Part shown: one piece after another, positions 1,180-18,003 of the stretch
Layout of the letters: each line of letters opens with the position of its first letter
Numbering within the stretch: the first letter of the stretch is position 1
IMG/VR virus record: IMGVR_UViG_3300024259_000042
Location: 1-55,789 of that record
Strand: one strand, 5' to 3'
Source of the DNA: a virus
Length of the DNA: 55,789 nucleotides
Program-made: the position numbers and the translations under genes
Notes under the pieces: model-generated
What the model saw: the letters and a program-made list of their open reading frames with translations, nothing else
The model's database searches: none
What the model was told of the DNA's origin: nothing

Positions 1180-1189
1180 TTAAGAGAAG

Positions 1190-1220: not shown

Positions 1221-1273
1221 AAGGATGAATCCTATTATTCATTTTTAAAGAATTATATCAAGGGAGAAATATA

Positions 1274-1651
1274 ATGAGATTGCAAAGATTTTTAAATGAA
1301 GAGGATATGATTAAAAAGGCATTAGCTATTGATGAACCTGAAGTTAATAACGAATATACAGAAGAGGAGATTGCAGCTAATAAGGAAATACTTCAAATTG
1401 CTATAGGTAAACAAACAGAAATTTTAAGTAAATTAAGAAAAGGTAGTAATAATGATGATCAATTAGATGCTGCTCGTGCTATAATGGCAGATTTAAAAGA
1501 TAAAGAAGAGAAATGGGATAATCCTGAAAAGGAAACAAAATCCCAAGGACCAAATCCTCCAGAAGCTATGGGTGGAGGAATGGAAGAGGAACCTGCAGAG
1601 GAACCACCCAAAGAAGAGGAAGAAGAGGAACCTGAAGAAGAAGAAAAATAA
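1274..1651 (+). CDS. Acidic protein with capsid-targeting-type leader
   Basis: 125 residues starting MRLQRFLNE|E; the bar marks a predicted prohead-protease cut after Glu9 (L-N-E). The body is helical and ends in a very acidic Pro/Glu tail (residues ~90-125, runs such as EEPPKEEEEEEP). Such tails occur in phage scaffold or internal head proteins, but I cannot assign a function. It has a good ribosome site (AAGGGAG) and is followed 18 bases later by a strongly basic protein, so the two may form a charge pair in the head core. First gene after the terminator. Confidence 0.65.
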   Translation: MRLQRFLNEEDMIKKALAIDEPEVNNEYTEEEIAANKEILQIAIGKQTEILSKLRKGSNNDDQLDAARAIMADLKDKEEKWDNPEKETKSQGPNPPEAMGGGMEEEPAEEPPKEEEEEEPEEEEK

Positions 1652-1669
1652 ATTTAAAGGAGAAGAATT

Positions 1670-1876
1670 ATGGACAGAATTGATGAATTACTCGAAAAGT
1701 ATTTAGATGAGAAGATTGGTGGACCAAAGAAGAAAAGAAAAAAAATGAAAGGTAAAGCCTTAAAGAAATCCAGACTTTATGCTAAGAAAAACAAGAAGGC
1801 TATTGCTAAGAAAGCAGCAAAGTATCGTAAGAAAAATAAGAATAAGTTAGCCGCAGCCGCAAAGAAGAGAAAATAA
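1670..1876 (+). CDS. Highly basic internal-head-type protein
   Basis: 68 residues. The leader MDRIDELLEKYLDE|K fits the second leader type (IDKYL-like, cut after Glu14, L-D-E). Everything after it is Lys/Arg/Ala (GGPKKKRKK, AKKNKKAIAKKAAKY), which resembles histone H1 or T4 internal proteins that bind packaged DNA. I infer DNA binding or condensation inside the capsid. A good ribosome site (AAAGGAG) precedes it and the next small ORF begins in a TAATG overlap. The low-complexity composition means homology searches would be weak. Confidence 0.75.
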   Translation: MDRIDELLEKYLDEKIGGPKKKRKKMKGKALKKSRLYAKKNKKAIAKKAAKYRKKNKNKLAAAAKKRK

Positions 1877-1995
1877 TGAGATTAACAGAACATGTGCATA
1901 TATGCTGGTTTGGTGACAGTAGATGGGATAAAACCCTATACAAATGTGAAGTATTTTATAGATTAGGACACATAGGTATTATAAGGAAATTATGA
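1876..1995 (+). CDS. Small ORF, 39 aa
   Basis: A short reading frame starting in a TAATG overlap with the basic protein and ending in an ATGA overlap with the next gene, an arrangement typical of real genes here. The product begins MRLTEHVHICWFG, which shares only MRL with the leader family and has no Glu cut site. It could instead be filler whose start merely resembles the leader, or a decayed leader gene. Two Cys and one His are too few to suggest a metal site. Confidence 0.4.
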   Translation: MRLTEHVHICWFGDSRWDKTLYKCEVFYRLGHIGIIRKL

Positions 1996-2426
1996 GACTT
2001 CAAAAGTATATAAATGAAGAATATTATACTAGATTTAGAGGCTTTAATGGTAAGTCTTTTGAAATCTTTAAGAATCCTTCAGCTAAAGAATTAAAAAGTA
2101 TTTCAAGAAATGAAGTTGGAAATAAATATGATTTAAGATTTATTGCTGATAATACTACTAAAGATACATATATGTGGTTATGGGACGCTATTAACCATGA
2201 TAATATGATTAAAAAGCATTTAAGTAAAGAATTTAAAGGTAAAAAATATGAGGATCCTTCATTATTTTTAGGTACTTCAGATGATAAAGGTAATGATACT
2301 TTAGAATGGTTTATGCATAATGAACTTGATTTAGAATATATTGATGGAATTACCAGTATAAGTTGGAATTGGGCTAAACCCTTTCAAATAATGAAATATT
2401 TAAAAAAGTTGAATATAATAAAATGA
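1992..2426 (+). CDS. Family A paralogue with capsid-targeting-type leader
   Basis: 144 residues, leader MRLQKYINE|E (cut after Glu9). The body belongs to a family found seven times in this window (here called A): an NPS-x-x-E segment (KNPSAKELK), then LRFIAD, then a W-containing DA-x-x-H block (LWDAINHD), ending in a lone helix. The other copies are at 7543, 10681, 37935, 38920 and 43599, plus more distant relatives. Function unknown. It is coupled to its neighbours by 4-base overlaps on both sides. Confidence 0.7.
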   Translation: MRLQKYINEEYYTRFRGFNGKSFEIFKNPSAKELKSISRNEVGNKYDLRFIADNTTKDTYMWLWDAINHDNMIKKHLSKEFKGKKYEDPSLFLGTSDDKGNDTLEWFMHNELDLEYIDGITSISWNWAKPFQIMKYLKKLNIIK

Positions 2427-3934
2427 GATTAAAACGATATATTAATGAGTATGATATACCATTATTATTAGAAAAAATTAATAAAAAAGAAATTACATCT
2501 ATGCTTAATAGTAATGATGTTCTTATTGGTGCGGAATTTGAGTTTATTGTTGATGATGCTGGTATTTCCGATGAATTACAAAGAATGTATGATAATGCTG
2601 TAAATGATCTTGAAAATTATAATGATAATGTTGAGAATTATCGTGAGGAATATGAAGAAATTAATGATAAAAGAGATAAACTTGAAGATGATGTTACTAA
2701 ACTTGAAGATGAAATAGATAGATTATCAACACTTGATTATGATGAAGATGAAGAATTATTAGACAATCTTGAAACAGAAAAGGAAGAAAAAGAAACTGAA
2801 TTAAAAGAAACTGAAACTGAATTAGAAGAATTATATCCACCTTCAATAGGAAGTGATTATGAAGATTATATGCATCAGATTGGATGGGATTCATATGTTG
2901 ATCCTGGACAAGAAGTTGATGAACCACCACATCCAGAAGATGCAAATGATACTAGTGAAATGGAGCCAGAACAAATAGAACAATGGATTGATAATGTTAA
3001 CCCAAGACCACCATTTACAGATTGGGAAGTAGGTGAATATGGTTATTCATCTCCAAGACCAGGTGATACTACATGGGGAGTTGAACCTGATTCATCATTA
3101 AATACAGGTGGTATTGAAATAAAATCTCCTCCATTACCTTTAAAAGAGTTTAAAAATATATGTAAACAAATGTTTGATTGGATTAAAGTGGTGGGTACTA
3201 CTGATAGTTCTTGTGGTTTTCATATTCATATGTCATTAAAGAATGTAAAGGATTTGAAATCCGAACTTGATTTGATGAAGCTTGTTCTTTTTACTGATGA
3301 ACAATATATTTTTCAACATTTTAAAGAAAGAAAAAATAATACATATACACAATCTATGAAAGAAAAGATAAAAGGGGGTACCCTTGAACTTAGTGATTGG
3401 TCCGCATTTATAGATACTAAAAAATTAAAAAGAATAGCAACCTCCGATCATTATAGTGGTATTAGTTTAGATGGTTTAAGTGATAATAAACAACATATAG
3501 AGTATAGATATCTAGGTGGTACTGATTATCATAGAAAATGGAATAAAGTTCAAGTTATTATTGCACAATATGCTTATAATCTTAATCTCGCCTGTAATAC
3601 ATCGTTTAAACATAAAGAATATATTTTAAAAACTCAAAGATTATTTAGAAAGGTTGAGAGTAATATAATGAGTGAGATATATAGAGTTATAGACAATATG
3701 ATTATATTGAATGATAAATTGATAGAAGATAATAAAGGTAGTGAAAAAGCTGGTAAATGGTTGAGAAAATTAAGAAAGACTGTAAATATTAGTGTTATAA
3801 ATAAAAAATGGACAAATTGGTCTAATTTTGTTTTACATGATATTATGGGTAAATGGTTGAAAATAATGGGATGGAAAGATTTTGGTATGGAAATAGATGA
3901 TTATAGTTTAATGAATGATAGATGGACTAAATAA
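2423..3934 (+). CDS. Amidoligase-like enzyme with capsid-targeting-type leader
   Basis: 503 residues, leader MRLKRYINE|Y. After a linker comes IGAEFEF (about residue 36), a long acidic coiled coil (~50-140), then WGVEPDSSLN, GGIEIKSPPLP and CGFHIHMSL (about residue 270). These are the hallmarks of the Amidoligase_2 / COOH-NH2 ligase fold, ATP-grasp-related to glutamine synthetase. Known relatives are thought to form amide or peptide bonds on peptidoglycan or proteins. The leader suggests delivery into the host at infection, perhaps to modify a host protein or the wall. The coiled-coil insertion between strand 1 and the core is unusual. Confidence 0.75.
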   Translation: MRLKRYINEYDIPLLLEKINKKEITSMLNSNDVLIGAEFEFIVDDAGISDELQRMYDNAVNDLENYNDNVENYREEYEEINDKRDKLEDDVTKLEDEIDRLSTLDYDEDEELLDNLETEKEEKETELKETETELEELYPPSIGSDYEDYMHQIGWDSYVDPGQEVDEPPHPEDANDTSEMEPEQIEQWIDNVNPRPPFTDWEVGEYGYSSPRPGDTTWGVEPDSSLNTGGIEIKSPPLPLKEFKNICKQMFDWIKVVGTTDSSCGFHIHMSLKNVKDLKSELDLMKLVLFTDEQYIFQHFKERKNNTYTQSMKEKIKGGTLELSDWSAFIDTKKLKRIATSDHYSGISLDGLSDNKQHIEYRYLGGTDYHRKWNKVQVIIAQYAYNLNLACNTSFKHKEYILKTQRLFRKVESNIMSEIYRVIDNMIILNDKLIEDNKGSEKAGKWLRKLRKTVNISVINKKWTNWSNFVLHDIMGKWLKIMGWKDFGMEIDDYSLMNDRWTK

Positions 3935-4233
3935 TGAGATGTTTTCAAACAACATATGATATGGATGATTTTGTTTATCTTAAAGGTGACGGTGAGCCAA
4001 AGATAAGAAGGAGTAGAATTAAAGGTATAAAAATAATTATAGGAAAACCTTATAAAACATTTGATGAAGAATTTGGTATGATTATTCACCATTCTGGAGT
4101 AGAAGTATATTATTTTGTAAATGTTAGAAGTGATGAGAATCATGTATATAGAGATTGGCGTAAAGAAGAGGAGTTATATAAAAGGAAAGAGGATATAAGT
4201 AAAGATAATGAGATTCCACAATTACATAAATGA
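3934..4233 (+). CDS. Hypothetical protein, 99 aa
   Basis: Unrecognised. Starts MRCFQTTYDMDDF, without the leader motif, in a TAATG overlap with the amidoligase gene. The fold looks like a small beta-rich domain (residues 10-75), followed by a charged helix (WRKEEELYKRKEDISKD). It overlaps the start of the CCA-enzyme gene by 26 bases, so the two are likely translationally coupled. Confidence 0.6.
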   Translation: MRCFQTTYDMDDFVYLKGDGEPKIRRSRIKGIKIIIGKPYKTFDEEFGMIIHHSGVEVYYFVNVRSDENHVYRDWRKEEELYKRKEDISKDNEIPQLHK

Positions 4234-5629
4234 ACAAGCATTGAAGGGTTGGAAAGACTATGTTAAATCCAATAAAATGCTTAAAGCCTCTATAAAAATC
4301 CTTGATAAGATTGAAAAGAAAGGATATAAAGCATGGGTGGTTGGAGGAAGTGTTAGGGATATTATCATAGGTAAAGAGCCTCATGATGTTGATATTGCCA
4401 CCACCTGTCCAATGGATGTCCTAGATAAAATATGGAAGACCTATGATATAGGTTCCTCTAAAGATTTTGGTATTGTTACTGTCAAAGAAAGTGGATATGA
4501 TTTTGAGATTGCACAACTTAGAGGGGAATCCAAGTATGATGGTCGTAAACCTGAATCAGTTAAGTTTAATGTTCAGTTGAAGGATGATTTAGGTAGAAGA
4601 GACTTGACAGTGAATGCTATGGCTATTGATAAGAATGGTAACATTATTGATAAGTTCAATGGTCAAAAAGCAATGAAAGATAAAGTATTGAAAACAGTAG
4701 GTAATCCATATGACAGGTTCTCGGAAGATTTTTTACGGATCATGCGTGTTGCACGATTTGCTGCTAAGCTTGGTTTTGACATTGATAAAGATACTAAGAA
4801 GGCTGCAACAAAGTTATCAGGCAATATCACTAAACTTTCACCAGAACGAATTAAAGAAGAAATACTGAAATCCGCTGGTCAGTCAGGAGATAAGTTCGCT
4901 AAGTATATCCTTTTACTTGATCAATTGAAGATACTTAAACATATATTACCTGAATTAAAACAGTTACAATATAGTAAAGAGAATCCAACGCATCATCCTG
5001 AAACTGTTGGGAAAGGTGGCTCTCCATTTGCTCATACTATTGAAGCATTGAAAGCAAGTAAGACAAAGGATCCATTGAAGAACTTGGCTATACTGTTACA
5101 TGATGTTGGTAAGGGTACATCGTTTAGTGATTCTACACCTGGTAAATCTTTTACATATTATGGACATGATAAGGATGCTATCAAACTTATTGAAACCATT
5201 GCTAAGAGACTAAAGATGTCTAATAGTGAAAAGGAAGCATTGTTATATACTGCTACACAACATATGAAACTAAACATATTGAAAGACATGAAACCATCTA
5301 AAATCTTTAAAATAGTCAATAATGATAATTGGGATATTCTTGTGGTAGTAGCCAAAGCGGATGAAATGAGTAGGGGTGAGACTTTTAAAACAGAAAAAGA
5401 ATTTGATGAGATGATTAAATATGCTGAAGATATAAAAAACAAATGGAGTTCTAAAAAAGTAAAAGAAATATTTTCAAAACAGGTTAATGGTAAACATATA
5501 ATGGAGTTATTAAATATAGGACCATCCAAAAAGGTTGGTAAAGTAAAGAAGAAAACGATTGAATGGATAATAAATACAGGTGAAACAAACCAAAAAAATA
5601 TAGATTCTTATATAATGGAATTTAAATAG
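4208..5629 (+). CDS. CCA-adding-type tRNA nucleotidyltransferase with HD domain and leader
   Basis: 473 residues, leader MRFHNYINE|Q. The head domain has VVGGSVRD (~43-50) and HDVDIA (~59-64, the metal-binding DxD), then the GRRDLTVNAMA and DRFSEDFLRIMRVARF motifs of class II CCA-adding enzymes / bacterial poly(A) polymerases. An HD phosphohydrolase domain follows (LLHDVGKG, ~296-303), as in the E. coli enzyme. The likely reaction is adding or repairing the CCA end of tRNA, with possible 2',3'-cyclic phosphate removal by the HD part. Poly(A) synthesis is the main alternative. The leader implies it is carried in the virion, which would let it act on tRNAs before any phage gene is expressed. 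Confidence 0.88.
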   Translation: MRFHNYINEQALKGWKDYVKSNKMLKASIKILDKIEKKGYKAWVVGGSVRDIIIGKEPHDVDIATTCPMDVLDKIWKTYDIGSSKDFGIVTVKESGYDFEIAQLRGESKYDGRKPESVKFNVQLKDDLGRRDLTVNAMAIDKNGNIIDKFNGQKAMKDKVLKTVGNPYDRFSEDFLRIMRVARFAAKLGFDIDKDTKKAATKLSGNITKLSPERIKEEILKSAGQSGDKFAKYILLLDQLKILKHILPELKQLQYSKENPTHHPETVGKGGSPFAHTIEALKASKTKDPLKNLAILLHDVGKGTSFSDSTPGKSFTYYGHDKDAIKLIETIAKRLKMSNSEKEALLYTATQHMKLNILKDMKPSKIFKIVNNDNWDILVVVAKADEMSRGETFKTEKEFDEMIKYAEDIKNKWSSKKVKEIFSKQVNGKHIMELLNIGPSKKVGKVKKKTIEWIINTGETNQKNIDSYIMEFK

Positions 5630-5685
5630 GAGGACAGGGCTTGATCACCTTGGTTGGATGCCTTCAACATCTGACCTTACTCCTA
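5627..5685 (+). ncRNA. Conserved putative structured RNA before HNH gene
   Basis: This 59-base element begins in the stop codon of the CCA gene and lies directly before the HNH endonuclease. Ends TAGGAG (5627-5632) and CTCCTA (5680-5685) pair perfectly, and inner pairs include GGC/GCC and ATC-ACC/GGT-GAT around a CCTTGG core. A clearly related element (44069-44125) sits before a GIY-YIG endonuclease. Shared blocks are TAGGAGGACAGGG, CCTTGGT, GGAT and CCTTACTCC. The function is not known to me. Confidence 0.55.
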
Positions 5686-5715
5686 ACAAAATAAAAACCT
5701 TTGAAGGAGGTAGTT

Positions 5716-6639
5716 ATGAAGATATGTTGGGATAATTTAGAAAATTTGAAACTAACTAGAAATGGTTACTTTAGAGATATTGTAAAACGAACTATATTTA
5801 GATATGTTGATGAATGTAAGACATGTAAAGAACCATTCTTAACGAGAACTAACACTAAAGGTATATACTGTTGTAACTGTTGTAAAAGGCTTACAGAAGA
5901 ATCTAAAAGGAAAGTAGGCGATTCACATAAAGGTAAAAGGTTATCAGAAGAACATAAGAAAAAAATAAGTGATGGCAATAAAGGAAGAAAATCATCAAAA
6001 TCAACAAGAGAGAAAATTAGAAAGTCAAAAATTGGTGAGAATAATCCTATGTATGGTAGGTATGGAAGAAAATCTGGTAATTGGAAAGGTGGATATACAT
6101 CTAAAAACATACCTACTTATGATACATATGCAACTCAATTAAAATGGACAGAGGAAGTTAGAAGAAATGAAAAGGACCCTAATATATTAGAAGTGAAATG
6201 CTTTAAATGTACTGAATGGTTTATACCAAAAGCATATGATGTATATAACAGAATACAATATTTAAAAGGTAATGATTTGTATTATGAAAATAGGTTTTAT
6301 TGTTCTAATGGGTGTAAACATACTTGTTCTGTATTTCGTAAATCTTATAATACTATAATGAAAGAAGATTCAATTAGAGCTGGCAGACTTACATGGTTAG
6401 AACTCAAACGGGAGATTCAACCCGAATTGAGACAAATGGTATTAGATCGTGATGAATATCAATGTGTTAAGTGTAGTTCAGATGAAAATCTTCAATGTCA
6501 TCATATCATGCCGGTTGTAGTAGAACCTCTACTAAGTGCGGATGTTGATAACTGTATAACATTATGCAAAGATTGTCATAAAGAAGCTCATAAACAAGAT
6601 GGATGTAGATATGGTCAGTTAAGAATAGAGGAGTGTTGA
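5716..6639 (+). CDS. HNH homing endonuclease
   Basis: 307 residues. I chose ATG 5716 because AAGGAGG (5704-5710) is correctly placed for it; the frame is open from a TTG at 5701. Order: a short zinc-ribbon (CKTCKEPF...CCNCC, ~26-46), NUMOD3-like DNA-binding repeats (HKGKRLSEEHKKKISDGNKG, SKIGENNPMYG), a second Cys cluster (CFKCTEWF, CSNGCKHTC), and the C-terminal HNH nuclease (CVKCSSDE, CHHIMP, DNCITLCKDCH). It inserts between two leader-bearing genes and has no virion leader itself. Its second half is closely similar to the HNH protein at 32210-33001. Selfish element; it likely spreads into phages lacking the insertion. Confidence 0.92.
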   Translation: MKICWDNLENLKLTRNGYFRDIVKRTIFRYVDECKTCKEPFLTRTNTKGIYCCNCCKRLTEESKRKVGDSHKGKRLSEEHKKKISDGNKGRKSSKSTREKIRKSKIGENNPMYGRYGRKSGNWKGGYTSKNIPTYDTYATQLKWTEEVRRNEKDPNILEVKCFKCTEWFIPKAYDVYNRIQYLKGNDLYYENRFYCSNGCKHTCSVFRKSYNTIMKEDSIRAGRLTWLELKREIQPELRQMVLDRDEYQCVKCSSDENLQCHHIMPVVVEPLLSADVDNCITLCKDCHKEAHKQDGCRYGQLRIEEC

Positions 6640-6640
6640 T

Positions 6641-6850
6641 ATGTCTAATTTAAAAAAATATTTAAATGAAAGAAAAGAAACTTTAGAATCTGTTGCAGAA
6701 TATGTAAATTCAGAAGGATTAGGATATGCTATACAAAGTGGTTTAAATTGGAAAGATATGGAAGATAAAAAATTAGCAAAATATTGGAAAATCGCAGAAA
6801 ATGCTATGAATGAAATAACAAATATTTTAGGAGATTCTTTAGAATATTAA
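6641..6850 (+). CDS. Small protein with capsid-targeting-type leader
   Basis: 69 residues starting MSNLKKYLNE|R (predicted cut after Glu10, L-N-E). The remainder is helical and mildly acidic and I do not recognise it. It starts 1 base after the HNH gene stop with AGGAG at a proper distance. Before the endonuclease insertion it would have followed the CCA enzyme directly, so the two may have been one unit. Confidence 0.6.
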   Translation: MSNLKKYLNERKETLESVAEYVNSEGLGYAIQSGLNWKDMEDKKLAKYWKIAENAMNEITNILGDSLEY

Positions 6851-6864
6851 AGGAGTATAAAGTT

Positions 6865-7122
6865 ATGTTATGGATAACACTAATAATTCAATTGATACCA
6901 GTTATAATGAAACTTATAGAGATTGCTGAGAAACTTTGGGTGGATGATGAAGGTGCTGGATCATCAAAGAAGAATATGGTAATGGTAGCTTCAAAGGAAA
7001 TGGTAATAGCTAAAAGTGATGAAGAAACCTGGGATAAAATAGAGGGAGCGGTTGGTGATATAGTTGATGCTTCCTGTAGAGTTGTAGTTCCTAATAAAGG
7101 TGAGGAAGTATATGCGGCTTAA
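6865..7122 (+). CDS. Small protein with N-terminal hydrophobic helix
   Basis: 85 residues. LWITLIIQLIPVIMKLIEIAEKLW (2-25) could be a membrane anchor or an amphipathic helix; the rest is soluble with one Cys. It has a clear ribosome site (AAAGGAG) and overlaps the next gene by 11 bases. No family recognised. A structural or lysis-accessory role is possible but unsupported. Confidence 0.55.
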   Translation: MLWITLIIQLIPVIMKLIEIAEKLWVDDEGAGSSKKNMVMVASKEMVIAKSDEETWDKIEGAVGDIVDASCRVVVPNKGEEVYAA

Positions 7123-7543
7123 ACAATACATAGTAAATGAACTCTTTGATACAGATGTTCTCATTAATACATCTATGAAAAGATATGATAAGCATTTATA
7201 TCGTTTTGGTATTGATGGTTTGCAATATAGATTTGATGCTATTTTTGATGAAGATGAAGGATGGCAAATATTTTTTGGTATAGAAAAAGGTAAAAAAATG
7301 GATGTTAGTATAACTAATACAGGCAATCAAAATAAAGTATTTGCTGCCGTTTTAAAATGTCTTAAAATATTCTTAAATAAAGTAAAACCAGATAGAATAT
7401 TCTTTACAGCAAAAGAACCTAGTAGACAAAAATTATATGATAGGATGTCTAAATTATTAACTAAAATGTTTCCATATAAAATAGATAGACAGGATATACA
7501 TAGATTTGATAAAAGTAAGTTTTATGGTTTTACGAGGTCATAA
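7112..7543 (+). CDS. Family B paralogue with leader (VNE-LFD)
   Basis: 143 residues from ATG 7112, chosen because the product then begins MRLKQYIVNE|LFDTDV like its paralogues (ATG 7100 adds only four residues). Family B (other copies at 7989, 9938, 10995 and, diverged, 43069) has a beta-rich first half, a middle ITNTGNQNKVFAAVLKCLKIFL helix, and a signature strand plus helix, FFTAKEPSRQKLYDR. The last part resembles the substrate-binding region of GNAT acetyltransferases by eye, but this is weak. Function unknown. Confidence 0.7.
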   Translation: MRLKQYIVNELFDTDVLINTSMKRYDKHLYRFGIDGLQYRFDAIFDEDEGWQIFFGIEKGKKMDVSITNTGNQNKVFAAVLKCLKIFLNKVKPDRIFFTAKEPSRQKLYDRMSKLLTKMFPYKIDRQDIHRFDKSKFYGFTRS

Positions 7544-7989
7544 TGAGACTTAAACAATACATAACAGAACTTTATATGAAGGATAGAGGTAAGAAATCTA
7601 TTGAGATACTTGAAAATCCCTCTAAAAAAGAAGTGAGTGATGTCATTAGAAATAGTAAAGGTGATAGTGTTAAATTCATTGCCTATAAGAAGGATATATA
7701 TTTATGGGATGCTTATTCTTCTATATTACATGATGATGTTTGGGTAAAACAAGGTAGAGACTTGGAGGATGATATAGCGGATACTATTATATTTCCAGGT
7801 TATGCTATTTGGAAGGGTGGTAAACTTGTAATGAATCAGGTTTCAGTATATTTAGAGGATCATTTATTAGATTGGGATAACGAAAAGGTATATACTGATA
7901 GATTGGATGCTTTTGAAAAGAAATTCAAATGGCTTAACACTTTCATAGACACATCATTTTTAAGAAGATCCATTGAGAGAAATTTCTAA
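7543..7989 (+). CDS. Family A paralogue with capsid-targeting-type leader
   Basis: 148 residues, leader MRLKQYITE|L. Family A signatures follow in order: LENPSKKEV, VKFIAYKKDIYLWDAY, LHDDVW, and a C-terminal KWLNTFIDTSFLRRS, the same ending as in the copies at 38920 and 43599. It overlaps family B genes by one base at each end (TAATG), so A and B members alternate in one translationally coupled run. Function unknown. Confidence 0.7.
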   Translation: MRLKQYITELYMKDRGKKSIEILENPSKKEVSDVIRNSKGDSVKFIAYKKDIYLWDAYSSILHDDVWVKQGRDLEDDIADTIIFPGYAIWKGGKLVMNQVSVYLEDHLLDWDNEKVYTDRLDAFEKKFKWLNTFIDTSFLRRSIERNF

Positions 7990-8465
7990 TGAGACTACAA
8001 CAATACATGATAACTGAACTCTTTGATACTAAGGTGCCTATTAAACTTAAAGAAAGGGATAAAAATCCATTTGGCGAAACATACTACTATGAATTCCTTA
8101 TAGATGATTATAAATATACATTCATTGGTGAATTCTTTAAGTATCCTGATAAGGAAGAATATAAAGAATCTTCAGTATTAACAGTAGAATTTCACCAAGC
8201 AGGTTTTTATGAAATAACTGATGCTGGTGACGCATTTAAAGTATTTTCTGCTGTGAAATCTTGCCTAATGGATTTATTGAAGAAATTACCTGAAAAACCT
8301 GATTCAATTTCTTTTAGTGGTACTGATAGTGAACCAAGTAGAATTAAATTATATGATAGATTTGCAAAGGTAATTCCAAGAATACTAAAGGGATATAAAT
8401 TTATAGGCAAAGAACATGAATTAGATGGTAAAAGTTATAAATTTAGAAGTAAAAAGAGGAGGTAA
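7989..8465 (+). CDS. Family B paralogue with capsid-targeting-type leader
   Basis: 158 residues, leader MRLQQYMITE|LFDTKVP (Glu10). The core keeps the family B helix (GDAFKVFSAVKSCLMDLLKKL) and the EPSRIKLYDRFAKV signature. It is slightly longer than its siblings because of an extra loop (KYPDKEEYKESS). The ITE-LFD junction matches the T4 Alt processing site as I remember it. Function unknown. Confidence 0.7.
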   Translation: MRLQQYMITELFDTKVPIKLKERDKNPFGETYYYEFLIDDYKYTFIGEFFKYPDKEEYKESSVLTVEFHQAGFYEITDAGDAFKVFSAVKSCLMDLLKKLPEKPDSISFSGTDSEPSRIKLYDRFAKVIPRILKGYKFIGKEHELDGKSYKFRSKKRR

Positions 8466-8470
8466 AGGTT

Positions 8471-8959
8471 ATGAAAATGTTATGGTTTTTAATTATTTCG
8501 TTGTTTCTGATGGTAGGTAATGTTAATGCAACTTACATAGATGATTTCAAAGGTAATGATAAAGACAATGTGGTTGACCAACTCCTTATAGATAATAATT
8601 GGACAAATATAACCCTTGGAAGTTTAGAATTACTTGGTAAATCAGATGAAGGTATTAATGTCGTTTTAAATGAGACAGATGGCACCTGGTCCTTAGATCC
8701 TTCAAATCAATTGAATATAAATGATATTGGATTCATATCAGTTAAAGCTGGTAATAATAGTTATGTATTCAGATCAAATGATTTCAATTATCTTTTTGGT
8801 ATTGACGGTTCCCCTGTGTTTACAAAGGATGTATCACATATAAGTTTTTGGAAAGGTGGAGGATATGAGGGTCCAGGTGGACAAGTACCTGAACCAATAA
8901 CATTATTCTTATTAGGATCAGGTTTACTATATATGAGTATTAGAAGGAAAATTAAATGA
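8471..8959 (+). CDS. Secreted protein with PEP-CTERM sorting signal
   Basis: 162 residues. The N terminus (MKMLWFLIISLFLMVGNVNA) is a signal peptide with likely cleavage after NVNA. The C terminus reads VPEPITLFLLGSGLLYMSIR followed by RK residues: a VPEP motif, a hydrophobic helix and a basic end, which is the textbook PEP-CTERM signal recognised by exosortase (EpsH/XrtA). The middle is an Asn/Asp-rich beta-type domain (HISFWKGGGYEGPG near the end). In bacteria these proteins are exported and sorted in exopolysaccharide-producing Gram-negatives. It lies in the leader-gene run with a good AGGAGG site. It may coat or alter the host surface late in infection, or be a captured host gene. Confidence 0.85.
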   Translation: MKMLWFLIISLFLMVGNVNATYIDDFKGNDKDNVVDQLLIDNNWTNITLGSLELLGKSDEGINVVLNETDGTWSLDPSNQLNINDIGFISVKAGNNSYVFRSNDFNYLFGIDGSPVFTKDVSHISFWKGGGYEGPGGQVPEPITLFLLGSGLLYMSIRRKIK

Positions 8960-9636
8960 GACTAGAGAAATATATAAATGAGATAACCAAGGTATCCGAT
9001 AGTTATACCAATAAAATAGTGGATGCTGGACTCATTAACTATAAGAATATCATGAAAAAGATCAAGATTAAAGCCTGGCCCATACAGTTGGCAGCCCTTG
9101 CATCTGCTTTTAAAGACTTCAATATAACCTTCATGATAAAAGATTACAAATGGATGAACAAATTCTTTAAGATTGATCAAGATGATATAGGCTCAACAAC
9201 AAAAGTCCAAGGTACACCTATACAAATAATACTCAAGAAAAAAGAATTGAAGAATATAACATCTGGTTTCATAAAGAAAAAAATATCTAAAGTTCTTACA
9301 CATGAGCTGGTGCATAGAAAACAATTTACTTCTATGGATCCAGAATTTATGAAATATTATAGCCTTAAAAATGCTGATATAACACAATATTTTTCACGAA
9401 AAGAGGAAATTGAAGCATACGCAAGGGATGCTATAAATGAATTAAAAGATGGTAAATCTGATATTGTGGATTCTTATTTTTATTGGATTAAGGGTATGTC
9501 TATGGAATTATGGAAAAGATTTCTAAAGAAATTATATCAATATCAGGATCTATATGGTGATGATATATCCAAGAAGAATTTAATAAAACAACTACCTGAA
9601 TTGGGAACTGAGGAGGAGGATGAGGATGAAATTTAA
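8956..9636 (+). CDS. Zincin metallopeptidase with capsid-targeting-type leader
   Basis: 226 residues, leader MRLEKYINE|I. The centre has THELVHRKQF (~115-124), a HExxH zinc site, and 25 residues later KEEIEAYA, where a Glu serves as third ligand, so this is a gluzincin-like layout. The C terminus is strongly acidic (TEEEDEDEI). Predicted to cut a protein, either inside the capsid during maturation or in the host after injection. The substrate is unknown. Overlaps the signal-peptide gene upstream by 4 bases. Confidence 0.75.
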   Translation: MRLEKYINEITKVSDSYTNKIVDAGLINYKNIMKKIKIKAWPIQLAALASAFKDFNITFMIKDYKWMNKFFKIDQDDIGSTTKVQGTPIQIILKKKELKNITSGFIKKKISKVLTHELVHRKQFTSMDPEFMKYYSLKNADITQYFSRKEEIEAYARDAINELKDGKSDIVDSYFYWIKGMSMELWKRFLKKLYQYQDLYGDDISKKNLIKQLPELGTEEEDEDEI

Positions 9637-9937
9637 AGACTTTGTAATAAATGAGGAAAGACTTGGGAAGAATGATAAGAAGTGGTTGAAGGATTATATT
9701 AAGAATCCTAAGAATGATACCTTTACAATACAATCCTTTAAGAATAAGTCTGAAGTGGATGTTAAGAAGATAAAGGATGGTGTTCAATTTCAATATGATT
9801 TAGATAATTATGAATTAACTAATGAATTGGTTGATTTAGTTGACAGTATGGGTGGATATAAGTTTAGCACAAAAAGTGAGAAAAGTATTAATGCTATGAA
9901 TTTTAAAGTTACATTAAAAACCCCTAAAGGAAGATAG
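9626..9937 (+). CDS. Small basic protein with capsid-targeting-type leader
   Basis: 103 residues from ATG 9626 (MKFKDFVINE|E); AGGAGG at 9611-9616 is 9 bases from this ATG and only 3 from the one at 9620. Lys-rich, alternating strands and helices, no recognised domain. The start lies inside the metallopeptidase gene's acidic tail codons (a GGAGGAGGATGAGGATG stretch serves both as coding sequence and ribosome site). Confidence 0.6.
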   Translation: MKFKDFVINEERLGKNDKKWLKDYIKNPKNDTFTIQSFKNKSEVDVKKIKDGVQFQYDLDNYELTNELVDLVDSMGGYKFSTKSEKSINAMNFKVTLKTPKGR

Positions 9938-10348
9938 ATGCGACTGCAACACTATATAACTGAACTATTTGATACTAAAGTTGATATAAAAATAGTAAAA
10001 CAAAATCCTTCTATGTGTATATATGAATTCACTATAAAGGAATTAAAATATTCCTTTAAAGCTGATAAATATAGAGGAACATGGGAAATATTATTCGTAA
10101 GTGATGTGGGAATAAGTATAACTGGAACAGGTAATGCTATACAAGTCTTTGCAGCAATTGCTAAATGTTTAGATATATTTTTAAAGAAATATAAACCCAT
10201 GGTGTTTTGGTTTAGTGCAAAAGAACCAAGTAGAAAGAAATTATATTTAAAAATGTCCAAACTTATTACAAAGAAATATTCTTATAAATTTAAAACTGAA
10301 AGTGAAGATATAGAAGATGACGAAATATATGTATTTAAGAGGAACTAA
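9938..10348 (+). CDS. Family B paralogue with capsid-targeting-type leader
   Basis: 136 residues, leader MRLQHYITE|LFDTKVDIK. It is closely similar to the copy at 10995 across the body: GTWEILFV, GISITGTGNAIQVFAAIAKC, FLKKYKPM, FWFSAKEPSRKKLY. The leader codons differ from those of 10995 mostly at third positions, which argues for selection on the peptide rather than recent DNA copying. Starts directly after the previous stop. Function unknown. Confidence 0.7.
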   Translation: MRLQHYITELFDTKVDIKIVKQNPSMCIYEFTIKELKYSFKADKYRGTWEILFVSDVGISITGTGNAIQVFAAIAKCLDIFLKKYKPMVFWFSAKEPSRKKLYLKMSKLITKKYSYKFKTESEDIEDDEIYVFKRN

Positions 10349-10681
10349 ATGAGTTTAACATATACAGCTAAAGGAACACCTGTAATGAAGATTGGAAAGT
10401 TTCAATTATCCCTTACCTCTACTGATGGAAGTAGTGATAAATGGAAGTGGTTAAGTGTATCTAATGGTAAGAACAAAGATATAGCTCCTTTAACTCTTTT
10501 AGGTTTGAAGCAAAAAGTTGTTCCTTTGAAAACTAGATATAAAATGCAAAAGGTCTTAAAGAAGTATATTAAAGATGGATATATCTATAAGAAGGATGTT
10601 GATAAATTATATAATGATTTAAAGATAATAGATGAAAGTATTACAACCCGTATAGACAATTTAATGGATTTATTATTATAA
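10349..10681 (+). CDS. Hypothetical protein, 110 aa
   Basis: Starts MSLTYTAKGTPVMKIG with no leader. The first half looks beta-rich (GKFQLSLTSTDGSS, WKWLSVSNG), the second is a helical pair (YKMQKVLKKYIKDGYIY...KLYNDLKIID). Unrecognised. It abuts its neighbours on both sides within the family A/B run. Confidence 0.55.
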   Translation: MSLTYTAKGTPVMKIGKFQLSLTSTDGSSDKWKWLSVSNGKNKDIAPLTLLGLKQKVVPLKTRYKMQKVLKKYIKDGYIYKKDVDKLYNDLKIIDESITTRIDNLMDLLL

Positions 10682-10983
10682 TGTCCGAGGGATCGTCTAT
10701 AACAGGACTGACAGATGTATGGGATAGTAAAAAATTTAAACCACTTGAAGTCTTTATAAATCCTTCTAGGAGTGTATTAAAAGAAATAGCACCTCATGTT
10801 AGATGTGTAATTGATGATAAAAGTAAAACACTTTATGCATGGGATGGTACAAGTGCATTACATTATGATGTATGGAAAAATATACTAAAGAAAGAGCTTA
10901 AAGATAAACGAAAATATGATGATGTTACATTAAGACGTAGTAATTACGAACACGGTGATCGCTATCCTGATCCTAATAGATAA
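10681..10983 (+). CDS. Family A paralogue lacking the leader
   Basis: 100 residues. It carries the family A core (FINPSRSVLKEI, VRCVIDDKSKTLYAWDG, SALHYDVWKNIL) but begins MSEGSSITGLTDVW, without MRLxxYxxE, and lacks the C-terminal KWLN...WLRR helix. It may be a truncated relic or a form that stays in the producing cell. Starts in a one-base TAATG overlap. Confidence 0.6.
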   Translation: MSEGSSITGLTDVWDSKKFKPLEVFINPSRSVLKEIAPHVRCVIDDKSKTLYAWDGTSALHYDVWKNILKKELKDKRKYDDVTLRRSNYEHGDRYPDPNR

Positions 10984-10994
10984 AAGGAAACATT

Positions 10995-11408
10995 ATGAGA
11001 CTACAACAATACATAACTGAACTATTTGATACTAAGGTTGATATAAAAGTAGAGAAGCAAACCATGTCGGCTGATATATACACTTTTGTTATAGATGATA
11101 TAGAATATTCATTCCATGCTAGAAATGAAAAAGGAACATGGGAAATAGCATTTTCACAATATGAAGGAATTGGTATAACTGGGAGTGGAAATGCACCACA
11201 AGTATTTGCAGCAATAAGTAAATGTTTAGATATGTTTTTAAAGAAATATAAGCCTATGGAGTTTTGGTTTAGTGCAAAAGAACCAAGTAGAAGAAAATTA
11301 TATAAGAGATTTGCTAAACTTATAACAAGAAAGTATCGCGCATATGATTTCAGAATGGACAAGGCTTATGACGGTGATGATGTCTTTATATTTTCAGATA
11401 AATCATAG
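10995..11408 (+). CDS. Family B paralogue with capsid-targeting-type leader
   Basis: 137 residues, leader MRLQQYITE|LFDTKVDIKV. Sister of the gene at 9938 (GTWEIAFS, GIGITGSGNAPQVFAAISKC, FWFSAKEPSRRKLYKRFAKL). It is the last plus-strand gene before the convergent UvsW gene and overlaps its end by 6 bases; I see no hairpin terminator at the junction, so convergent transcripts may run into each other. AAAGGAAAC precedes the start. Confidence 0.7.
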   Translation: MRLQQYITELFDTKVDIKVEKQTMSADIYTFVIDDIEYSFHARNEKGTWEIAFSQYEGIGITGSGNAPQVFAAISKCLDMFLKKYKPMEFWFSAKEPSRRKLYKRFAKLITRKYRAYDFRMDKAYDGDDVFIFSDKS

Positions 11409-12833
11409 TTCTATCTGATTACCCTCCTCCAATACTATTTCATCAGTTTCAAACCCTTCCACTCCATAATAACGAAACCTTACATTACCATGTTTACCCA
11501 AGTATTTAGTATGATCATGTATATCATATATTACAGCACCTTCCTTTTTATTAGCATGTTTCCTCAATGCCCTACCTATACTCTGTAACACTCTGATCTT
11601 ACTCTTAAATGGAGAACCAAATACAATATACTTCAAATTAGGTATGTTAATACCTTGTGCAAAGATACCATAGGTAGCAATCAATATAATATCCTTCCTC
11701 TTTAAACAAGCCTTACGCCATTTCTCTCGTTCCTCTATACTATCCCTACCAGATAAAAATACTATCTCCTTCTTGGTCACCCCTTGTAACCAATTCTTTA
11801 AATAATCTCCCTCCTTCTCAACCTTACCCACCAATATAAGAACATTATGATCCAATTTATTAACAACCTTCTTAATAACATTCAGTCTGTATTGATTAGT
11901 GAATACCAAATCCTTTACTTCATCATATGTACCCTCCAATACCTCCTGATACTCTATGTTAATAACCTTTACATTACATTTACTTATATAACCCTTCTCA
12001 GCAAGAAAACCTGAGCTGTAATTTGCTATAACAGGACCAAGATATGATTGGGTGTTCAGATTATCTAATTTTCCAGCATGTAGGGTTCCTGTAAATCCCA
12101 GTCTATAATCAGCATTGATTGACTTTACAAGGATTTTCTTCAAAGATAGTGCTTTTACAGAATGACATTCATCACATATTATACAATTATATAGTTTTAA
12201 TTTACTTGTATTTTTAATTAGTGTTTGCCAGGTTGATACCACAATATCTTTATCCCATTCCTTGGCCTTAGCATGGACCTTACCTACAGAATATTTCATA
12301 TCATATTCTTTCATATCATTATAAAATTGTTCTACTAAAGATTTATTAGGAACAATAATTATACACTGTTTTGCTTTTTTATTTTCCAATAATGTTTTTA
12401 GTATGTAAGCAATAATAAGGGATTTACCAGAAGCGGTTGCAGACCTAATGATACCTTTAGTATATTGTAGTGATTTTATTATGCAATCTTTTTGATAAGG
12501 ATATGGTTTCAAGGAAAGATTTTGTTTAATTTTTAAAGAAGAACCCTTAAACAAAGACTTTACACTATCATCAATTCTTAATATTACTCTCGGAAAGGAT
12601 ATTTTATTAATTCTTATTAACTCTGTTAGTAATCCATATGGTAAAAAACCATTGTTTTTTATTAAACAAATTTTACCGTCCCATCCTCCTGATTTATAGG
12701 CGGACATCCAATTATAACCATCAACTAAATAAGTAAATTCTTTTTTAAGAAGTTTTATATAATCCTCATCATCGGATTGTATTTGAATATGTAATTGATC
12801 ACCTTTTATTATATTTACTATATTATCCATCAT
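11403..12833 (-). CDS. uvsW: UvsW-type recombination helicase
   Basis: 476 residues, superfamily 2 helicase resembling T4 UvsW, which drives branch migration, fork regression and R-loop removal. The N-terminal UvsW-specific region (VDGYNWMSAYKSGGWDGKICL, ~30-50; FLPYGLL) matches T4's DGYRF...GNWDGRI and LLPFGLV. Helicase motifs: Y-Q-K-D Q-motif, ATASGKS Walker A, VSTWQT, CDECHS (DExH), GFTGT, and the C-terminal lobe with IATYGIFAQGIN and QSIGRALRKH. Length is close to T4's 503. The start overlaps the GIY-YIG gene stop in an ATGATGG arrangement; ATG 12830 is an equally possible start. Followed in T4 order by UvsY. Confidence 0.92.
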   Translation of the reverse strand: MMDNIVNIIKGDQLHIQIQSDDEDYIKLLKKEFTYLVDGYNWMSAYKSGGWDGKICLIKNNGFLPYGLLTELIRINKISFPRVILRIDDSVKSLFKGSSLKIKQNLSLKPYPYQKDCIIKSLQYTKGIIRSATASGKSLIIAYILKTLLENKKAKQCIIIVPNKSLVEQFYNDMKEYDMKYSVGKVHAKAKEWDKDIVVSTWQTLIKNTSKLKLYNCIICDECHSVKALSLKKILVKSINADYRLGFTGTLHAGKLDNLNTQSYLGPVIANYSSGFLAEKGYISKCNVKVINIEYQEVLEGTYDEVKDLVFTNQYRLNVIKKVVNKLDHNVLILVGKVEKEGDYLKNWLQGVTKKEIVFLSGRDSIEEREKWRKACLKRKDIILIATYGIFAQGINIPNLKYIVFGSPFKSKIRVLQSIGRALRKHANKKEGAVIYDIHDHTKYLGKHGNVRFRYYGVEGFETDEIVLEEGNQIEL

Positions 12834-13477
12834 ATTGTTATATGTTTCCACCGTTTATCGTTTTTTATATTATATATTACACATCTATTTACATTATATA
12901 TTTTAGCTATATCTATACCTTTTTCTCCTCTCTGTAATCTTTTCTTTATATCAATAATATTTTCATTTGTAAATTTTGCATTAGGATTATTTTCACCTTT
13001 GTTCATTTTACTCATTCGTTTACTCTGCATATCAACAAATTCAGGATTTTTCCATTGTTTTTCCATTTGGTTTTTTGATTGCACGGTTTTTATTTTTCTA
13101 TATTCATCGTTTTCCCATGTCCTTTTAATACTTTTACTGTTTGCTTTAGACATCTTCTTTTTAAATTCAGGATCTTTCCATTGTTTCTTTAAATCATCAC
13201 TGTTAAATCCTTGACCTCCAACTGTTAAATTATAATATTTTTTACTTTGTATTATATGGTTGGTTATTAATTTATTTTCATATCTATAGGACTCTTCTTC
13301 ACTACCAACAATAATAAGTATCTTTCTACCGAAATTTTTTCTACCATACATTTTGATATCCTCAAGTAATATCTTTCCGGATCCTAAATATCCATCGTCA
13401 ATATTAGTGGTAGAATGCTTACCAATATATTTTTTACCGTTTATTAAATTAGTGGTTTCATACACGAAATGTATCAT
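12830..13477 (-). CDS. GIY-YIG homing endonuclease
   Basis: 215 residues from ATG 13477, which overlaps the upstream gene's stop in TAATG and follows AAGGATGGGG. The N-terminal nuclease domain shows FVYETTNLINGKKYIGKHS (GIY-YIG motif), GSGKIL, the catalytic Arg/Glu region and N-x-x-x-GG (YYNLTVGGQG). NUMOD-type repeats (KKQWKDPEFKKKMSKANS, MEKQWKNPEFVDMQSKRMSK, KGENNPNAKF) and a C-terminal helix-turn-helix (IAKIYNVNRCVIYNIK) follow for DNA binding. It is inserted exactly between the uvsY-like and uvsW genes, coupled to both by start/stop overlap. Confidence 0.92.
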   Translation of the reverse strand: MIHFVYETTNLINGKKYIGKHSTTNIDDGYLGSGKILLEDIKMYGRKNFGRKILIIVGSEEESYRYENKLITNHIIQSKKYYNLTVGGQGFNSDDLKKQWKDPEFKKKMSKANSKSIKRTWENDEYRKIKTVQSKNQMEKQWKNPEFVDMQSKRMSKMNKGENNPNAKFTNENIIDIKKRLQRGEKGIDIAKIYNVNRCVIYNIKNDKRWKHITI

Positions 13478-13890
13478 TATAACCCCATCCTTTCGTTTTG
13501 TCCAAACTCTTTCATGTTCCATTTAACATCCTTCAATCCTTTGAAGCACATTTCAAAAAACTCCACTCTAATCATTTGATTCCTCATTAACTGTCGCATC
13601 TTCTTAATATATGGATCCTTTGGTAAATAATATTTCTCAATTTCAGTTTTCGTCAATGCTTTATCCTGTTCAAACCTAAAATGGTCATACCTCTTACCCA
13701 TCAATGCTTCCATTTTCTCCTCCATTTCCTCATATAACATTCTTTCCATGTTATATAAGTCTTGGTATTTGAGTGTAAGGAAAGTATTATCCTTCAATTT
13801 CTCCTGTAAATCCAACTCGTTAAAGGAAACCATTTCTAGGATTGGGTGTTCTTCCATCAATTTTTCTTGTATTATCTCACGTTCAGTCAT
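13477..13890 (-). CDS. UvsY-like recombination mediator
   Basis: 137 residues, the same length as T4 UvsY and next to UvsW as in T4 if the endonuclease is ignored. UvsY loads the UvsX recombinase on single-stranded DNA coated by gp32. The sequence is almost all helical and charged: QEKLKDNTFLTLKYQDLYNMERMLYE resembles the T4 stretch that ties to UvsX, and the KxxxRYDHFRFEQDKALTKTEIEKYYLP region parallels T4's Lys/Arg DNA-binding loop followed by SEMKTVLSAD. Assignment leans on length and context because the family is very divergent. Confidence 0.65.
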   Translation of the reverse strand: MTEREIIQEKLMEEHPILEMVSFNELDLQEKLKDNTFLTLKYQDLYNMERMLYEEMEEKMEALMGKRYDHFRFEQDKALTKTEIEKYYLPKDPYIKKMRQLMRNQMIRVEFFEMCFKGLKDVKWNMKEFGQNERMGL

Positions 13891-13899
13891 ACAGTTTCC

Positions 13900-14871
13900 T
13901 TATAGTTTTGTATATTGTCTATTTATTAACTCATATGCTTCTATAAAGGATGATTTTTCATTATCTATCCAACTAAAACCATGTTTCATAGCCTTAACAA
14001 CAGATTCTTTAAGTTCCTCTCCTCCTATTCTTTCAACAATATAATGTAGAACATCATAATCTGGTGTATCTGGTTGTTGACGGGACGTGATTTTAAAGTT
14101 ATTAATACCTAATGTTTTTAAATATTCTATATGTTTATTACTAATCTCTAATGATGTTGTATGTTTTAGAAAATCTTTTGGTGGTAACATATTTATAACC
14201 CTTTTATGTAATTGCTCCTCACACCAAAGTTTACCCATATCTTGATAGAAATTGGTATTTTTAACCCAATAATTTCTATTGGCTTCACTGACCCTTTTGT
14301 AATGTTCACTTCTGAATTGACAATCATGTAAGCACTTTTCGTTGGCAAATATTTCAAGTTTTTCAGGTCCTATTTGTTTAATAACATCTTCATTATAGTT
14401 CCATTCAGCCAATAGTACCATTACATCATATAAGTTTTTACGTTTTAAATAATAATCAACATTTGTATTATAGTGGGTACAAGAAAGAACCCGTTTATAT
14501 TTTGGATATTTTTCCCTTACATATTCAGCAAAGGTATCATTCAGTATAATTACACCGTTTAAATCATTATGGAATTTATCTAATATGAAATTTCCATCCT
14601 CATCGTTAATGTCTATTTCATGATTAGAGAATGTAAAATAAAAAGATATACCCCTCATGTTCAATGCTGTTATATAATCCACGAATTTATAAGGCTCTAA
14701 AAGAGGAGGCATATCTAACATTGATCTACCACCACTCCATTTAAGCATATAATTACTATCATATATACCAAACTGTATTCTATCCTGATAGCCAAATTTA
14801 TTTAATAAATTGTCAATCTCTATAATTGACGAAGCATTCATAATACCGCCAATCTTCCAATTTTCTTTCAT
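13900..14871 (-). CDS. Possible U32-like TIM-barrel protein
   Basis: 323 residues. ANEKCLHDCQFRSEHYKR (around residue 178) is like the Cys-x-x-x-Cys plus R-x-x-H segment of U32-type 'peptidases', many of which are iron-sulfur tRNA or quinone hydroxylases rather than proteases. Only two Cys lie in that segment; HTT...C-type partners are not obvious, so a cluster is doubtful. A TIM-barrel pattern of strands (IQFGIYDSNY, GISFYFTFSNHEI, GVIILND, VMVLLAEW) precedes it. AGGGAGG sits 5 bases before the ATG, with a strong promoter behind it. First gene of the UvsY-UvsW unit. Role in the phage unknown. Confidence 0.6.
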   Translation of the reverse strand: MKENWKIGGIMNASSIIEIDNLLNKFGYQDRIQFGIYDSNYMLKWSGGRSMLDMPPLLEPYKFVDYITALNMRGISFYFTFSNHEIDINDEDGNFILDKFHNDLNGVIILNDTFAEYVREKYPKYKRVLSCTHYNTNVDYYLKRKNLYDVMVLLAEWNYNEDVIKQIGPEKLEIFANEKCLHDCQFRSEHYKRVSEANRNYWVKNTNFYQDMGKLWCEEQLHKRVINMLPPKDFLKHTTSLEISNKHIEYLKTLGINNFKITSRQQPDTPDYDVLHYIVERIGGEELKESVVKAMKHGFSWIDNEKSSFIEAYELINRQYTKL

Positions 14872-14894
14872 TTGAACCTCCCTTTGTTTCTATT

Positions 14895-14923
14895 ATTCTA
14901 TCATACTAAATATAAAAAGTAAA
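14895..14923 (-). promoter_or_regulatory. Extended -10 promoter, leftward
   Basis: Read on the minus strand: TTTACT (-35), 17 bases, then TGA-TAGAAT (extended -10). It would drive the gene ending at 13900 and on through uvsY-like, GIY-YIG and uvsW. It lies back to back with the rightward promoter at 14928-14956, with only four bases between the -35 boxes. Confidence 0.7.
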
Positions 14924-14927
14924 CATA

Positions 14928-14956
14928 TTTACATTTCCAAGTTCCTGTGATATAAT
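14928..14956 (+). promoter_or_regulatory. Extended -10 promoter, rightward
   Basis: TTTACA, a 17-base spacer and TGA-TATAAT, close to the host sigma-70 consensus. It precedes the gene at 14984 with GAAAGGAG as ribosome site and would drive the helicase-dUTPase unit. The same box pair with 17-base spacing occurs at 18004 and 23409, so this is a promoter class of the phage, probably early. Confidence 0.85.
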
Positions 14957-14983
14957 GATACTATCTATTGAAAGGAGTTTATT

Positions 14984-15355
14984 ATGAAATTTGAGAATTA
15001 TGTGGTTGTCAAGGAGAATGGTAAGTGGATGGTTGGTAAGATCAAAGGATATAAGTTTACACCTTATCAGGATGTTAAGAAACTATCCGATGTTAAGGAT
15101 GTTAGTTCCTATATATCCCTTACACAATATATAAAGAAAAATAAATTTAAACCATCCTTAGCCAAGTTATTATTGAAGAAAACAGGATTACAAAGTATTT
15201 ATATATTAAGTAAACCTGCTTATCTGGATGAGGATGAATGGGATAATTACTGGTGGCACGACTATTGTAAAAAGTGTAGGTTATGTGCAAACAAATGTAA
15301 ACAAAGTCATTTTGCTGAGATTGTGGTATGTCCAGATTATAAAAGGAAGGAATAA
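14984..15355 (+). CDS. Hypothetical protein with C-terminal Cys cluster
   Basis: 123 residues. Starts MKFENYVVVKENGKWMVG, whose first six residues echo the leader type, but no hydrophobic-x-Glu cut follows and it is driven by an early-type promoter, so I do not count it. The C terminus has HDYCKKCRLCANKCKQS and a further VVCPDY, five Cys in 30 residues that could bind zinc or an iron-sulfur centre. Function unknown. Abuts the next gene (one-base overlap). Confidence 0.55.
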   Translation: MKFENYVVVKENGKWMVGKIKGYKFTPYQDVKKLSDVKDVSSYISLTQYIKKNKFKPSLAKLLLKKTGLQSIYILSKPAYLDEDEWDNYWWHDYCKKCRLCANKCKQSHFAEIVVCPDYKRKE

Positions 15356-15585
15356 TGAGTCAAGAACTAGCAGGATCAGTATTATGTATGAGTGGTGAAA
15401 GACATGTAAGTGTTAATGGTTTTGATTATTATTTTGATAAAGAAGGAGAACTTCATAGAACTGATGGTCCGGCAGTTTCAAATGGTGTTGGTGGGGAATC
15501 ATACTGGTTGCATGGTAAAATGGTAGAAAAGGGGGATATTAGATTGTTAAACAATAACGATATAGAGGAATTATTTACATTATGA
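15355..15585 (+). CDS. Small protein with HRxDGPA motif
   Basis: 76 residues. FDKEGELHRTDGPAVSNGVG followed by YWLHGKMV is one unit of the repeat (HRxDGPAxxxxxGxxxYWxxGK) seen, often in tandem, in many phage and bacterial proteins of unknown role. Only one unit is present here. It sits directly before the helicase gene (4-base overlap), which may mean only shared translation. Confidence 0.6.
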   Translation: MSQELAGSVLCMSGERHVSVNGFDYYFDKEGELHRTDGPAVSNGVGGESYWLHGKMVEKGDIRLLNNNDIEELFTL

Positions 15586-16967
15586 CAGAAAGATTAGATA
15601 GTGATTTCCTTGAGAAATTAATAATCAAAGGAATGTTAATAGATAAAAGGTACCTTGCCATTGTATCCTCTGTATTTGAACCTGAATATTTTGACAATTC
15701 CTCCGCATCCTCTATATTTGAATATACAGCAGGTTATTTAGAAGAGTATAACAGTATACCAGAGGAACAAGCAATTATCAACACTATGAAAGAGAATGAT
15801 AGACAGGAAATAAAAGATTTCTTCTCCGATGTCCATGCTGTTGATTTTGATATAACTAAATCTTATGATTATCTATTCACTGAAACTAACAAATATCTTA
15901 AAGAACAAGCAATTAAAAAAGCAATCATCTCATCAGTTGATATCATTGATCAAAAATCTGATCCTGAAGCCATTAGGGAAAAGATAGAGGCAGCCCTATC
16001 AAAGGATTTGAAGGTTGATCTTGGATTGAAATATTTTGAAGATTTAGGTGAAAGATTAAGAAGAGTATTTACAACAAGTACCATAAGGGTTCCCACATAC
16101 TTTCCTGTGTTTGATGAATTTATTGCTGGGGGTTTCCCACCCTTTACACTTTCAGTATTAGTGGCAAGGATTCATGGGTTTAAGAGTAATACACTTGCTA
16201 ATATAGCAGCAAGACAGGTGATGCATGGTAAAAATGTTGTATTAATGACACTAGAAATGGCACAGGACGCATTTGCTCAACGATTTGATAGTATTTTATC
16301 CCTTATGGATATCAATCGAATGTATATGTCAGATGAAAATAAAAGAAGATTGATGAAAAACCTTATAGAGATAAAGAAGAATGAGAATAGAGGAGAACTA
16401 TTTATTAAACAATTCCCCACGGGGGACGCTTCAGTGCGTGAGTTTAAGACATACCTAAGGGAATTAGAGATAAGAGGTGTAAAGCCCGATATATTAATGG
16501 CTGATTATATTAACCTTATGAAGGCAGCATCCAAAACAGGTGAGGGTATGTATTCATCTATTAAGAGAATTAGTGAGGAATTAAGATCATTGTCATTTGA
16601 GTTTGAAGTGCCTGTTGTATCAGTAAGTCAATTGAACAGAGAAGGTTCATTTGTAGGATTTGCAGAACTGGACTTCACATATATTGCGGAATCATTGGGA
16701 CTAGCAGCAACATCCGATTTTATGTCAATTTTAGGAACTAATGATGATGATATGGTGTATGAAAGTGAACTATGTGGAAAGATTGTGAAAAACAGATTAG
16801 GAGGTAGGGTAGGGGAGAACTTTACTATGTATTATGATAGCAGAACCTTAAAGATGTATGATGAAAGTGAAATGGATGTATGGTTAAATGATGCAGTTAT
16901 AACAGGTGATGAAAGGAACTTCTTTGAAGCTCCTGATAATAATAGGAGGAATAGGAATGGTTCTTAA
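15582..16967 (+). CDS. DnaB/gp41-type replicative helicase
   Basis: 461 residues. The N-terminal helical domain (1-160) is followed by the RecA core: PVFDEFIAGGFPPFTLSVLVARIHGFKSNT, with Walker A around residue 205 in a reduced form (HGFKS rather than GxxGxGKS), VVLMTLEMAQDAFAQR (motif H1a), DILMADYINLM (Walker B) and VSVSQLNREG. This is the T4 gp41 class that unwinds ahead of the polymerase; gp41 Walker A (VNVGKS) is similarly non-standard. Context with polymerase, dUTPase and UvsW/Y supports a replication role. No primase domain is fused and no separate primase is seen in the window. Confidence 0.9.
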   Translation: MTERLDSDFLEKLIIKGMLIDKRYLAIVSSVFEPEYFDNSSASSIFEYTAGYLEEYNSIPEEQAIINTMKENDRQEIKDFFSDVHAVDFDITKSYDYLFTETNKYLKEQAIKKAIISSVDIIDQKSDPEAIREKIEAALSKDLKVDLGLKYFEDLGERLRRVFTTSTIRVPTYFPVFDEFIAGGFPPFTLSVLVARIHGFKSNTLANIAARQVMHGKNVVLMTLEMAQDAFAQRFDSILSLMDINRMYMSDENKRRLMKNLIEIKKNENRGELFIKQFPTGDASVREFKTYLRELEIRGVKPDILMADYINLMKAASKTGEGMYSSIKRISEELRSLSFEFEVPVVSVSQLNREGSFVGFAELDFTYIAESLGLAATSDFMSILGTNDDDMVYESELCGKIVKNRLGGRVGENFTMYYDSRTLKMYDESEMDVWLNDAVITGDERNFFEAPDNNRRNRNGS

Positions 16968-17121: not shown

Positions 17122-17132
17122 GGAGGAGTGAA

Positions 17133-18001: not shown

Positions 18002-18003
18002 TA

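Follow-up and report, generated by a model that had tools for sequence, protein, structure and literature searches.

A PEP-CTERM protein gene in a T4-like phage, a candidate substrate for host exosortase

Environmental bacteria, and those that form flocs and biofilms, are rich in proteins with a PEP-CTERM sorting signal. The signal acts there as an address label for the sticky outer coat, and most of these proteins, to our knowledge, have no known function. The locus described here raises the question of what a gene for such a protein is doing in a phage. It lies on the plus strand of a viral contig of 55,789 bases, the whole of which is referred to as the window, at positions 8471–8959.

The open reading frame encodes a product of 162 amino acids that is matched by PF07589 and TIGR02595 above their curated cut-offs. 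The Sec-type signal peptide (residues 1–20, MKMLWFLIISLFLMVGNVNA; 8471–8530), predicted from hydrophobicity and sequence, is a hydrophobic N terminus, with the cleavage site after VNA (next residues TYIDD) placed by eye. It is followed by a mature ectodomain with no detectable homologue (residues 21–138; 8531–8884), a VPEP motif (residues 139–142; 8885–8896), a hydrophobic C-terminal helix (residues 143–157, ITLFLLGSGLLYMSI; 8897–8941) and a basic tail, RRKIK (residues 158–162; 8942–8956), all on the plus strand, with GGQVPEPITLFLLGSGLLYMSIRRKIK forming the extreme C terminus of the translated product. PF07589 scores 23.3 bits over residues 138–160 (E = 6.5e-5; Pfam gathering cut-off 20.7), and TIGR02595 scores 23.2 bits over residues 139–162 (NCBIfam cut-off 16) in a match that begins at 8885 and covers the full length of the profile (1–24 of 24). 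The AlphaFold model, predicted from the single sequence, has any confidence only in the terminal helices at residues 3–24 and 142–161, and with a pLDDT of 44 it was too poor for a fold search, leaving the ectodomain without a confident fold. A sequence-only reading of the locus had proposed a signal peptide together with a C-terminal VPEP, helix and basic end, and the analysis confirms this bipartite signal.

The gene is a genuine gene of a T4-like phage, because its composition is phage-like, its Shine-Dalgarno sequence is strong and its end is shared, in an ATGA, with the start of the gene that follows. The Shine-Dalgarno sequence GAGGAGG (8456–8462, +) lies 8 nt before the ATG, within the end of the upstream gene (7989–8465, +), which starts with the leader MRLQQYMITE and weakly resembles DUF6934. 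The stop codon overlaps the start of the downstream gene (8956–9636, +), which has the leader MRLEKYINE and an HELVH (HExxH) motif and belongs to no Pfam family. The G+C content of 0.31 (0.21 at third codon positions) is the same as that of the neighbours. The sequence-only reading was right both on base composition and in placing the gene among others that start with an MRLxxYIxE-like leader. The contig also encodes a T4-like family B polymerase (PolB), about 30% identical to cyanophage and Methylophilales phage enzymes, a DnaB-like helicase, a dUTPase and a tRNA nucleotidyltransferase, as well as polynucleotide-kinase-like, tail-fibre and virion proteins.

Several features of the surroundings were observed in passing. 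About 20 genes of the window start with an MRLxxYIxE-like sequence (1274–11408, +; 25476–41557, −), including tRNA nucleotidyltransferase, amidoligase-like and kinase-like genes. Four leader-bearing genes around the PEP-CTERM gene are similar to one another (7100–7543, 7989–8465, 9938–10348 and 10995–11408), and three of these four resemble DUF6934 (best E = 9.4e-8). The leaders resemble the T4 capsid-targeting propeptide, which is the first 10 residues of IPIII (PMC9026906), and by this resemblance alone the leader-bearing genes may encode proteins that are packaged and injected. The PEP-CTERM protein itself was rejected as a capsid-targeted internal protein of the T4 type, a signal peptide taking the place of the propeptide. 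The HELVH motif of the downstream gene suggests a zinc metalloprotease; an HExxH-bearing neighbour of a PEP-CTERM gene in another record (L084, 6415–6927) is not homologous to it. Toward the end of the window, a tail-region protein (52393–54468) gave a sub-threshold choice-of-anchor C match (18.1 bits against a cut-off of 120), and a gene running off the contig end (55196–55789) has a signal-peptide-like start, MKKILKYILMITLCLCMYSIANA, and a match to a virion structural PHROG. In a further record (L007), about 1.2 kb at 5762–6928 breaks the PolB match relative to the window polymerase, possibly an intron, an intein or a homing-endonuclease insertion.

Comparison with a 29 kb relative (G002), which has 59–82% identity to the window over core genes and is syntenic on both sides of the locus, shows that the PEP-CTERM gene is accessory. 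Between the tRNA nucleotidyltransferase gene of G002 (3297–4709) and the homologue of window 9620–9937 there is no PEP-CTERM gene, the interval being filled by other leader-bearing genes. This absence is not an assembly error, since a 10.9 kb contig from a second metagenome is 100% identical to G002 from 4829 on; it indicates that the gene is dispensable, and it is compatible with either gain in the phage of the window or loss in the relative. It also fits the earlier suggestion that a host gene had been captured.

That suggestion came with the statement that few PEP-CTERM proteins occur in phages, which proved wrong. A search for the C-terminal motif in other phages, which the same reading had called for, showed such genes to be frequent in phage contigs: scanning IMG/VR with one narrow DNA pattern gave matches in at least 120 stretches, and 77 of the 81 matches read, among the matches listed, are PEP-CTERM C termini at the end of an open reading frame. 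TIGR02595 confirmed all 50 records tested among these matches, the records having been chosen by the pattern. Besides the window, 29 of 47 PEP-CTERM-bearing records among the matches listed encode a terminase large subunit, as does a 228 kb record (G055) outside this count. Many of the soil records with high G+C content may be prophages or carry flanking host DNA. The genes occupy various positions: one ends directly before a portal gene, with a major head gene downstream (L016), one lies shortly before the large terminase gene and follows the gene of a helix-turn-helix protein, possibly the small terminase (L063), and one, for a protein of 124 amino acids, overlaps a UvsW-like helicase gene in a 114 kb phage (L079). 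A fixed position beside the portal gene holds for L016 only. Two PEP-CTERM genes are found in one 228 kb phage (L084), and two different ones lie close together in six soil viral contigs (L074, L075, L090, L097, L104 and L116). L016, L042, L063, L079, L084 and others combine a signal peptide with a PEP-CTERM signal in records without exosortase, as in the window, and their ectodomains are unrelated to that of the window protein. Isolated phages yielded no homologue of either the L016 or the L042 family, and a match of one L084 ectodomain to Variovorax phage VBv52 (E = 0.03) was dropped, the phage protein having no PEP-CTERM signal.

Among the matches listed, the phage PEP-CTERM ectodomains form families of 28 and 16 members and several small ones. 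Pairwise dN/dS values in the two large families, which exclude the window protein, are 0.13–0.54 where not saturated, indicating that these families are maintained by selection. These values bear on whether the window gene is a host PEP-CTERM gene acquired in passing and expressed with no particular use to the phage. The syntenic relative without the gene and the lack of a homologue in related phages would agree with such a passenger. However, the gene already has a phage-like composition and close coupling to the genes around it, which suggests that the phage has probably retained it for a while, and PEP-CTERM genes recur in unrelated phages, with two families under purifying selection; we therefore regard an idle passenger as unlikely.

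Evidence that the C-terminal signal is one read by exosortase came from bacteria. Sixteen bacterial loci, retrieved with a seed pattern made from the window sequence and one other, had the C termini most like that of the window protein; they belong to Nitrospirota, Desulfobacterota, Acidobacteriota and other groups. Exosortase (PF09721) is encoded by 12 of 15 genomes with the nearest C termini compared with 1 of 14 controls (an archaeon), a difference that supports reading the window signal as an exosortase signal and is not a host identification. Together with the profile scores above cut-off, it supports the earlier proposal of an exosortase-type substrate in a phage. The enzyme itself was not found in the 55.8 kb window fragment or in any of 48 other PEP-CTERM-bearing viral records among the matches listed. 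Window positions 1–20000, searched with CRISPR spacers from 395 genomes of a single phylum chosen around a Desulfobacteraceae genome, had short matches at chance level only.

A signal peptide and a C-terminal helix alone would hold a protein in the inner membrane, and the helix might thus be a mere anchor, PEP-like by chance, of a bitopic inner-membrane protein such as a local superinfection or lysis factor. This is improbable, since the motif of 24 positions is present in full length, at the C terminus and above two curated cut-offs. In addition, a six-frame TIGR02595 search gave a single match in the window (26.7 bits, E = 8e-7) and zero in 14 control genomes, and a degenerate PEP-CTERM DNA pattern matched the window once against 0.00 matches expected from 100 shuffles.

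The ectodomain offers less guidance. Full-length homologues of the window protein were not found in INPHARED phages or in the contigs of IMG/VR and of GTDB species-representative genomes, the two contig scans detecting close relatives only. The ectodomain has no PHROG match and remained a singleton when the phage PEP-CTERM ectodomains were clustered. Membership in the flocculation PEP-CTERM family floc_PepA (NF033554) was rejected, as the weak alignment over residues 42–160 scores 24.1 bits where the cut-off is 80; the sorting signal is what the window protein has in common with that family. That the protein is a decoy, with which the phage swamps host exosortase, blocks the sorting of host PEP-CTERM proteins and weakens the matrix, is very improbable: the substrate does occur in phages without the enzyme, with a constant signal and widely variable ectodomains, but in the two large families the ectodomains are conserved and purifying selection acts on them, which would be needless for a pure decoy.

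The reading we prefer, and consider rather probable, is that the phage makes a substrate that is processed by host exosortase and whose ectodomain changes the surface or matrix of the host. In an infected cell the host Sec system would export the protein and the signal peptide would be removed, the VPEP motif, helix and basic tail would retain it in the inner membrane, and a host exosortase of the EpsH/Xrt type would cut near the PEP motif, passing an ectodomain of about 120 residues to the cell surface or the exopolysaccharide matrix. The surface of the infected cell would most likely be altered: phage receptors could be masked or crowded, giving superinfection exclusion, or matrix and aggregation could change; exclusion or a change of coat would be the most economical benefit to the phage. 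Processing by the host, the final location and the benefit are what we infer from the bipartite signal, the phage operon, the lack of exosortase in the records and the recurrence of such genes, all of which support a host-exosortase substrate; the absence from G002 and an ectodomain with neither homologue nor confident fold count against it. The functional reading of the window protein is, on this balance, plausible.

The protein itself joins the known PEP-CTERM class, and the interesting part is the presumed recurrent phage use of the host exosortase pathway. Phages of exosortase-bearing bacteria might commonly install proteins of their own in the host surface or matrix through the host sorting enzyme, a proposal we make tentatively. 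With similar reserve, this route could be a general and largely undescribed way of remodelling the host surface, of which the T4-like phage would be one example. The phage copies, lacking the enzyme, provide small and compact candidate substrates. Superinfection exclusion or matrix change, if true, would supply a function for part of the PEP-CTERM class. It would also provide a marker by which uncultured phages could be linked to exosortase-bearing hosts, and would mean that phages have a new route to the surface of Gram-negative cells.

In the open full text, with subscription papers mostly outside it, no dedicated study of phage PEP-CTERM proteins was found. A paper on Yellowstone hot-spring viruses mentions in passing, as transferred genes, 13 TIGR03118 proteins that have a putative domain for interaction with exosortase (PMC11003980); they are likened to the window protein by description, no mechanism being given there. 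In Aquincola, PepA, a PEP-CTERM protein, attaches exopolysaccharide to the cells when overexpressed (PMC9850573), which counts in favour of the preferred reading. The closest comparison is with the substrates of the PEP-CTERM/EpsH model, in which proteins are exported by Sec, held in the membrane by the C-terminal helix and recognised by EpsH at the PEP motif (Haft 2006, PMC1569441). Like these, the window protein has a signal peptide, a C-terminal VPEP-helix-basic tail and an ectodomain without homologues; unlike them, it has no exosortase found alongside it in the fragment, is encoded by a phage and is present in one copy in this record, compared with many per genome in bacteria.
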